From positions 29,538 to 93,537 of the forward strand of contig CABYVK010000004.1 of assembly GCA_902522385.1 (NCBI GenBank): a DNA stretch of 64,000 nt, in the 5' to 3' direction. Shown here one piece after another: positions 8,195-15,228 of the stretch. A program made the position numbers and the translations under genes. The notes below the pieces were generated by a model that made no database searches, was not told the DNA's origin, and saw nothing but the letters and a program-made list of their open reading frames with translations. Source of the stretch: an uncultured Pelagibacteraceae bacterium. Lineage in GTDB: Bacteria > Pseudomonadota > Alphaproteobacteria > Pelagibacterales > Pelagibacteraceae. Numbering within the stretch: the first letter of the stretch is position 1; each line of letters opens with the position of its first letter.

Positions 8195-8860
8195 TTATTT
8201 GAAATATATAAATTCGTAATCTCCTTTGTAGCCAAAATGATTATAAATCCAGATCCATTCTTTCTTTTCAAAAAAAGATTCACAAGTTAAAGCCCAACAT
8301 TGCAAATTAAATAATTCCTTTTCGTCTCTGTAGCTTTCAAGCATTATATATGATTTTTTACCAACTCTTTGTATTTCTTTTAACGCTTTTTCAATCTCAA
8401 ATATTTTTAAATTGTGCAAACATCCTAAGGAAATAACTAAATCAAACTTATTATTTTTAAATGGATATTTGTCCTGAGCTCTATGTAAGAATAAAAATTT
8501 TTTTATTTCCTCTCTTGTCGAATTTAATGCATATTTTGATATATCAAATCCACAAATTTTTATTCCCGGTATAAGTTTTTTTATTTCGTAAAGTAAAAAT
8601 GCTTTACCACAACCAACATCAAGAATACTTGAATTTTTATTTAGTTTATAATTTTTTATTATGGATTTTGCTACATTTTTCCATCTTCCAGGAATATATT
8701 TGTATCCACCATACCCATATTTTCTGTTCCCGTCCCAATAATCCTTTCCATATTTTTTGGAAACATTCATGCAGTGAACTTTCTTATCCAGCATCCTAGA
8801 TATATAATTTCTTTTGGTAGAATTATGCAGCTTAGATACGAAATTTTTTAATTTCCCCAT
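8195..8860 (-). CDS. Class I SAM-dependent methyltransferase
   Basis: SSILDVGCGKAFLLYEIKKLIPGIKICGFDISKYAL and FDLVISLGCLHNL. Confidence 0.75.
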   Translation of the reverse strand: MGKLKNFVSKLHNSTKRNYISRMLDKKVHCMNVSKKYGKDYWDGNRKYGYGGYKYIPGRWKNVAKSIIKNYKLNKNSSILDVGCGKAFLLYEIKKLIPGIKICGFDISKYALNSTREEIKKFLFLHRAQDKYPFKNNKFDLVISLGCLHNLKIFEIEKALKEIQRVGKKSYIMLESYRDEKELFNLQCWALTCESFFEKKEWIWIYNHFGYKGDYEFIYFK

Positions 8861-13271: not shown

Positions 13272-14783
13272 CTATCTTAAAAAAGTTGAGAAAAATTTAT
13301 TTAATTCTTGAGCCTCAACCACATTTTCATTTCCATATTTTTCTAGAGTCTTTGCCCCGAACATAGATCCAGCAATCAAAGATATTTCATCTTTTTTACC
13401 AACAGCAAAAAATAATGAGATAATAGATAACATTATATCTCCTGTTCCTACTTTATCAATTACATTGTTTGCAATCCCGGGAATTTTAATTAATTTATTT
13501 ATTTCATTTCTATACATTAAAACACCACTCTGGCCTTTGGTTACAATTATATTTTTAATTTTATATTTTTTTGAAAATACTTTTACTAATTTTTCTATGT
13601 GAGTTATTGAGTCTCTCATTTCATATCTCAGCTCTGTTTCATTTATAATTAAACTTTCCACTCCTTTATATTTTAAAATAGAATGACTACCCCTGCTATT
13701 TGCATTTATTTGGCAATTTAAAAATATATTTTTTTTTCTTTTAAGAATTTTTTTAATAATTTCGTTGTTTAGCAATCCGTGACCATAATCAGCAACAATT
13801 ATGATATCATAATTATTTATGTTTTTAATAAATTTACAAAACGTTTTATAGTCTGAACTATGTGTTTGTCCTTGATCAGTATCATAAATTCCTAAAACTT
13901 TAGTATTTGACAGTTCATCAACGTATCTTTTTTTTTCTATAGTTGAGTAACCTTTTGCTTTGATATATTTAAAATTTATATCTTTAAGTTTTTTTTTTAT
14001 ATAATTTATATAATTATTTTTTAAACCAAGTTTTGAAAAAAAAGTTACGTTATCACATAACTTGCTTGCATTTTGAGCTATTGATGCAGCACCTCCTAAA
14101 AATATTTTTGAATTATTTTCTTTTATTACAAGCATTGGATCCTTGCTTGCTTTTCCAATTGTTTCACAAAAAGAATATTTGTCTATAATTGTTTCTCCAA
14201 TAACTAGTACTTTTAATTTTTTAATTTTTAGAAGAATTTTTTTGAGATCCAAAAGCTTGAACTTGTTGGATATTTTCTTAAAATATTGTGTCAACTGGTC
14301 TGAAAATATCATATTGTTTTTAAACAATAATTCTGTTGAACTATTTAAAGCTGTTTTAGTAAATATTATTTTTCCACCATATTGTTCGACTGCTTTTTTT
14401 TCATCTATGATTTTTTTGCTAATATCGTCTGATAAATTTTTATAATCACTTCCTTTAATATAAAAATTTGGTTTTATATTTTTAATTATATTTTCAGCAG
14501 AACCACTATCGCTTTCAACAACATAATCTACAATATTCAAAGAGGAAATAGATTTCATTCTTTCCTGAAGTTTAAAAGAAGGTCTTCCCGGTCCTTTACT
14601 AACAAATCTATCAGAGGTTACAGAAACTATTAAAATGTCTGCATATGATTTTGCTTCATTGAAATGCTCAATATGACCAATATGTAATAGATCAAAAACT
14701 CCATGGCATAATACGATCTTTTTGTTTTTTTTGTTTTTTTTTAAAACTTTTTTAAGATTTAAAATTGAATAAATTTTTTTCAT
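13272..14783 (-). CDS. Bifunctional nucleotidyltransferase/PfkB kinase, HldE-like with reversed domain order
   Basis: N-term KIVLCHGVFDLLHIGHIEHFNEAKSYADILIVSVTSDRFVSKGPGRPSF (cytidylyltransferase fold). C-term VLVIGETIIDKYSF..FLGGAASIAQNAS..NVIDKVGTGDIMLSI (PfkB). Confidence 0.88.
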   Translation of the reverse strand: MKKIYSILNLKKVLKKNKKNKKIVLCHGVFDLLHIGHIEHFNEAKSYADILIVSVTSDRFVSKGPGRPSFKLQERMKSISSLNIVDYVVESDSGSAENIIKNIKPNFYIKGSDYKNLSDDISKKIIDEKKAVEQYGGKIIFTKTALNSSTELLFKNNMIFSDQLTQYFKKISNKFKLLDLKKILLKIKKLKVLVIGETIIDKYSFCETIGKASKDPMLVIKENNSKIFLGGAASIAQNASKLCDNVTFFSKLGLKNNYINYIKKKLKDINFKYIKAKGYSTIEKKRYVDELSNTKVLGIYDTDQGQTHSSDYKTFCKFIKNINNYDIIIVADYGHGLLNNEIIKKILKRKKNIFLNCQINANSRGSHSILKYKGVESLIINETELRYEMRDSITHIEKLVKVFSKKYKIKNIIVTKGQSGVLMYRNEINKLIKIPGIANNVIDKVGTGDIMLSIISLFFAVGKKDEISLIAGSMFGAKTLEKYGNENVVEAQELNKFFSTFLR

Positions 14784-14872
14784 AAAATAAGAATATATTA
14801 ATTAACATAAATAGATGTAAATATAAGTTTTTATTTTCAAAATTAAATAAAAAAACGATTTTTCCTTTGACT

Positions 14873-14907
14873 GTTCACCAAATGAACATTATGTTCATTT
14901 TATGAAC
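14873..14907 (+). promoter_or_regulatory. Candidate operator: four alternating half-sites GTTCA/TGAAC/GTTCA/TGAAC at exact 10-bp steps
   Basis: GTTCA 14873-14877, TGAAC 14883-14887, GTTCA 14893-14897, TGAAC 14903-14907. The central ATGAACAT-T-ATGTTCAT (14882-14898) is a perfect inverted repeat. Confidence 0.7.
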
Positions 14908-15228
14908 AAAAAAAAGCCCTTACAAAAACATTTAGACGTTTTAAGAGTGGTTCATAATAACCCGAATTCCTCACAAAGAGATCTTGCTGAAAGTTTAGGA
15001 ATAAGCCTTGGTAAATTCAATTATCTTTTAAAAGCGATGACAAATAGAGGTTTAATAAAAATTCAAAATTTTTCTAAAAGTAAAAAAAAAATTAATTATA
15101 TCTATGTTCTTACTCCTAAAGGATTAAAGCAAAAATTAAGTCTCACTTTAAGATATATGGAAATTAAAATGAAGGAATATGATGAATTAAAAAAAGAGGT
15201 AAATAATGTGGATAGTCGCAAAAGTTAA
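14902..15228 (+). CDS. MarR-type, EPS-associated winged-helix regulator (TIGR04176-like)
   Basis: KHLDVLRVVHNNPNSSQRDLAESLGISLGKFNYLLKAMTNRGLIKIQNFSKSKKKINYIYVLTPKGLKQKLSLTLRYMEIKMKEYDEL. Confidence 0.85.
   Translation: MNKKKPLQKHLDVLRVVHNNPNSSQRDLAESLGISLGKFNYLLKAMTNRGLIKIQNFSKSKKKINYIYVLTPKGLKQKLSLTLRYMEIKMKEYDELKKEVNNVDSRKS

Follow-up and report, generated by a model that had tools for sequence, protein, structure and literature searches.

Two divergent genes flank a 118-bp intergenic region (14784-14901) in the window, the 64,000-nucleotide stretch of SAR11 DNA that was analysed here. On one side lies an hldE-like gene, and on the other a gene for a small winged-helix regulator of the MarR_EPS family, whose end is overlapped by a gene for a NusG/RfaH-type paralogue (Table 1). 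The regulator gene has polysaccharide genes around it: epimerases, aminotransferases and the hldE-like gene. Four half-sites of alternating orientation occupy the regulator's end of this region: GTTCA at 14873-14877, TGAAC at 14883-14887, GTTCA at 14893-14897 and TGAAC at 14903-14907, in steps of exactly 10 bp. They make up two dyads of the form GTTCA-N5-TGAAC, and the regulator's ATG at 14902 is shared with the last half-site. An earlier sequence-only reading of this DNA had described the four phased half-sites, the overlap with the start codon and the divergent 118-bp region in these terms, and each is found as it said.

How unusual is such an array? Within the 64-kb window, the exact dyad occurs nowhere but in these two copies. 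The genome-wide scan which the earlier reading had proposed, run here on a 1.085-Mb draft that is 78% complete, gave three exact matches (the two array dyads and a third at C4:20605), against one match for a reversed control pattern. Dinucleotide shuffling of 14784-14933, repeated 20,000 times, produced three exact dyads and no four-half-site array. When up to one mismatch is allowed, 42 sites are found genome-wide versus 65 for the reversed control. In the window, where four sites were found against 1.57 expected, the one-mismatch sites at 8765 and 63963 (the latter with a low model score) were taken as chance occurrences rather than as operators.

Table 1. Features of the locus, with the third exact dyad found elsewhere in the genome; positions are those of the window unless a contig is named.
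Feature	Position	Strand	Basis and remarks
hldE-like kinase/nucleotidyltransferase gene	13272..14783	-	NCBIfam; possible second target
Predicted divergent promoter, TTTACA-18-TATATT	14792..14821	-	consensus scan, 10/12 matches; outside the operator
Predicted -35 hexamer of the regulator promoter, TTGACT	14867..14872	+	consensus scan; directly abuts dyad 1
Dyad 1, GTTCACCAAATGAAC	14873..14887	.	sequence, kept upstream of homologues; occupies the -35/-10 spacer
Predicted -10 hexamer, TATGTT	14890..14895	+	consensus scan; 17 bp after the -35; shares 3 bases with dyad 2
Dyad 2, GTTCATTTTATGAAC	14893..14907	.	sequence, kept upstream of homologues; includes the ATG start codon
MarR_EPS (TIGR04176) winged-helix regulator, 108 aa	14902..15228	+	NCBIfam (131 bits), model, fold search
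NusG/RfaH-type paralogue, 156 aa	15206..15676	+	model, Foldseek; overlaps the end of the regulator gene
Third exact dyad	C4:20605 (in the putative second operator-promoter of this genome, L004:8606-8640)		genome scan; some 30 bp past the 23S rRNA

The regulator and the NusG/RfaH-type gene behind it

The protein encoded at 14902 scores 131.4 bits against TIGR04176, above the curated cut-off of 88. This family is named in NCBIfam as "MarR family EPS-associated transcriptional regulator", and the window's member likewise sits among glycan genes. Its fold model, built with 24 homologues (pLDDT 83), has helices at 7-19, 25-32 and 36-48, a beta wing, and a C-terminal helix at 72-107. It contains a winged-helix DNA-binding domain, and the nearest solved structures found by Foldseek are MarR-family regulators. 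Family score, fold and structural matches thus uphold the MarR-type identity that had been assigned from the sequence. The monomer model shows the long C-terminal helix only, without an N-terminal dimerisation helix.

The next protein, encoded at 15206, belongs to no clear family by sequence, with weak Pfam NusG matches in 4 of 24 homologues. A sequence-only search against solved structures found no NusG, and a fold model was therefore used. This model (pLDDT 84) fits the arrangement of an N-terminal NusG-like and a following KOW-type domain: Foldseek matches it to full-length NusG, RfaH and Spt5, with E-values down to 2e-5 but full-length TM-scores of 0.3-0.4. A homologue of this gene comes after MarR_EPS in 49 named loci. 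Many distant class members also carry a NusG-like reading frame behind the regulator, as judged by a simple start-motif test that is weaker than the fold model.

NusG paralogues of the RfaH/UpxY type are encoded within glycan operons (PMC7593976). The 15206 gene resembles them in its NusG/RfaH fold and its location in a glycan operon, but differs in being preceded by the gene of the putative repressor MarR_EPS and in having no ops-like element in the window. No match to the ops-like GCGGTAGC, the recruitment element of enterobacterial RfaH, was found in the window; NusG paralogues apart from RfaH may rely on different signals, and SAR11 leaders are too short for such an element. In nine loci of the same class (L013-L015, L017-L020, L022 and L165), an ops-like GCGGTAGC does occur, downstream of the dyad (or of the form with a 4-bp centre) and upstream of the MarR_EPS start.

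Dyads in relatives of the regulator

A homologue search of named genomes yielded 80 loci, nearly all from SAR11, of which 78 have enough upstream sequence. The earlier reading had proposed looking for the same array before the regulator's homologues, and the dyads are there in strength: an exact copy precedes 75 of these 78 (mean 0.02 and maximum 1 in shuffles), a count of related genomes and hence not of independent cases. Two dyads are the usual state in SAR11. In two of the three dyad-less loci (L056 and L063), a tandem is found some 1.4 kb farther away on the upstream side, separated from the regulator by a reading frame of the same direction.

Of 33 homologues from outside the genus that score above the family cut-off, 22 have the exact dyad and 11 do not; nine of these 11 carry a variant with a 4-bp centre, a pattern that was picked after those 11 sequences had been seen. 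Of 18 more distant members of the class that score under the cut-off, 15 have the exact dyad and three do not, and 11 have two or more. When no 5-mer is specified in advance, GTTCA/TGAAC with its gap emerges as the commonest inverted 5-mer; otherwise, the 10-bp spacing within the dyad is set by the search itself.

The dyad also follows the gene within the genus. Among 37 genomes of the genus, intergenic exact dyads were found in all nine that carry a MarR_EPS gene, whereas the 28 that lack it have none. The 12 dyads in the gene-negative genomes all lie within coding sequence. One of the positive genomes, G028, was missed by the profile search because its contig ends inside the gene, whose first residues are readable; it was classed as positive after its dyads had been seen, and without it the contrast is 8/8 versus 0/28. 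Since the genomes of the genus are related, Fisher-test p-values overstate this contrast.

One relative of the window's regulator appears under an unexpected name. In L068, a record labelled as a Neomarinimicrobiota MAG, a MarR_EPS protein 57% identical to that of the window has the same tandem, with a 23S end motif upstream; the contig is possibly misbinned SAR11.

The array as a putative operator, and alternative readings

The constant place of the dyad before the regulator's relatives across Proteobacteria argues that the array is very probably an autoregulatory operator for the MarR_EPS protein encoded at 14902, a switch by which this protein limits its own operon. Autorepressors with tandem operators are a well-known kind of system. 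In the E. coli marO region, two palindromic MarR sites lie in the promoter of the protein's own operon, one between the -35 and -10 hexamers and one near the gene start, and they serve autorepression. The present array resembles marO in its two-site layout and its MarR-type protein; it differs in its recognition sequence, and also in that the 14902 protein is shorter, with no N-terminal dimerisation helix in its model, and the next gene encodes a NusG paralogue. A search of the open-licence literature for the motif and the family found no published operator for TIGR04176.

The dyads, their overlay on a predicted promoter, their conservation and their dependence on the gene are seen directly in the sequence. 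From these we infer that the binder is the 14902 protein, that its effect is repression, and that each GTTCA-N5-TGAAC dyad would hold one homodimer, the half-sites being one helical turn apart. Dyad 1 fills the predicted spacer between the -35 and -10 hexamers, and dyad 2 spans the start codon as well as the -10/+1 region, so that two bound dimers would exclude RNA polymerase and thereby repress the regulator unit. This unit consists of MarR_EPS and then the NusG/RfaH-type elongation factor, at the head of a surface-glycan operon, and once made, the NusG paralogue may help polymerase through this long operon. In the window the ATG comes 6 bases after the -10 of TTGACT-17-TATGTT (14867-14895), and the mRNA is accordingly predicted to be leaderless or nearly so. 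The 14902 protein has no obvious sensing domain, which counts against this main explanation, as do the 11 of 33 homologues outside the genus and the three of 18 more distant ones that are without the exact dyad.

The earlier reading went on to propose that one operator could control both operons; on this view it would repress the regulator's operon together with that of the divergent hldE-like gene. The divergent gene is a plausible target, since in 11 named loci an hldE-like homologue follows MarR_EPS on the same strand, and in G017 such a homologue has its own tandem next to it. However, the best predicted divergent promoter is clear of the array by a gap of 51 bp; the divergent neighbour varies among relatives, and in L119 each direction has its own separate tandem. 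From the sequence, repression of both operons by the one array is thus a possible but rather unlikely arrangement.

Much less probable is a single cooperative operator for which the strict 10-bp register of all four half-sites would be essential. The register is exact in the window, and a few relatives share the 20-bp distance between dyad starts (for example G007 and G025). Yet among 52 close SAR11 tandems this start-to-start distance is 20 bp in five, 21 in two, 22 in 11, 23 in 20 and 24 in 14, and in the more distant class members it is mostly 22-25 bp. The window's 20 bp is therefore a minority state (47/52 are at 21-24), and the four-half-site register is not conserved: the conserved 10-bp spacing is that within each dyad, not that across all four half-sites. 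The earlier claim that all half-sites lie on one helix face accordingly does not extend to the relatives, with their dyads mostly 22-24 bp apart and a modal distance of 23.

What accounts for this distance is suggested by the promoter rather than by helical phase. The six bases before dyad 1 form a TT(T/G)AC(T/A) -35 hexamer in nearly all of the 52 tandems, and in 40 of them the best -10 begins 2 bases past dyad 1, after a 17-bp spacer. A 17-bp spacer and a 6-bp -10 hexamer add up to 23, the modal spacing, so the dyads would appear to be placed by promoter geometry.

Could the 14902 protein act from these dyads as an activator? This too seems very improbable, as the sites lie over the start and the -35/-10 spacer, positions at which a bound protein normally blocks polymerase. 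Least credible of all is that the dyads belong to an unrelated regulator such as LexA. The alphaproteobacterial LexA box, GTTC-N7-GTTC, has the GTTC half-site in common with them, but this direct repeat is absent from the window and present in only one of the 78 upstream regions, counts on which LexA was rejected; moreover, the intergenic dyads track the MarR_EPS gene.

Further dyads and the surface-glycan island

If the array is indeed the operator of the MarR_EPS protein, which other genes would it serve? The third exact dyad of the genome, just after the 23S rRNA gene, has the same promoter overlay, a degenerate second dyad and a run of same-strand genes downstream, and the 14902 protein probably acts there in trans. 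A decayed MarR_EPS copy behind this dyad was suggested by eye; the profile gives it only about 6 bits (domain E-value 0.35), and it is not established. Extra intergenic dyads are also found in G012, G017, G025 and G028, several of them beside glycan genes.

The MarR_EPS match of 17 named loci starts 147-203 bp after a 23S 3'-end motif. This is the position of HVR2, the SAR11 hypervariable surface-glycan island as set out in the sections of PMC2217521 drawn upon here. The present genome agrees with HVR2 in that surface-glycan genes start directly after the 23S rRNA gene; regulation of the region is not discussed in those sections, which do argue that phage selection may target surface glycans (PMC2217521).

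Taken together, and tentatively, GTTCA-N5-TGAAC may be the recognition sequence of this whole, experimentally uncharacterised regulator family in Alphaproteobacteria and other Proteobacteria. In SAR11, by the same tentative reading, the operator, the small repressor and the NusG paralogue might form a mobile two-tier switch, acting on initiation and on elongation, for the 23S-adjacent surface-glycan island, with several island operons under the same operator. TIGR04176 would thereby gain a concrete and testable recognition sequence that serves as a regulon predictor, and in SAR11, which has few regulators, the dyad would mark surface-glycan operons that may switch together.

Two further forms of the regulator accompany dyads of this kind. 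In L024-L039, class members that fall below the TIGR04176 cut-off, tandem dyads precede a relative of 200-290 aa that carries an additional C-terminal domain, and a NusG-like gene often comes next; this extra domain matched no NCBIfam family in the two proteins scanned. In L170-L174, the MarR_EPS domain shares a single open reading frame with a bifunctional sulfate adenylyltransferase/APS kinase, and dyads with a 4-bp centre lie upstream.
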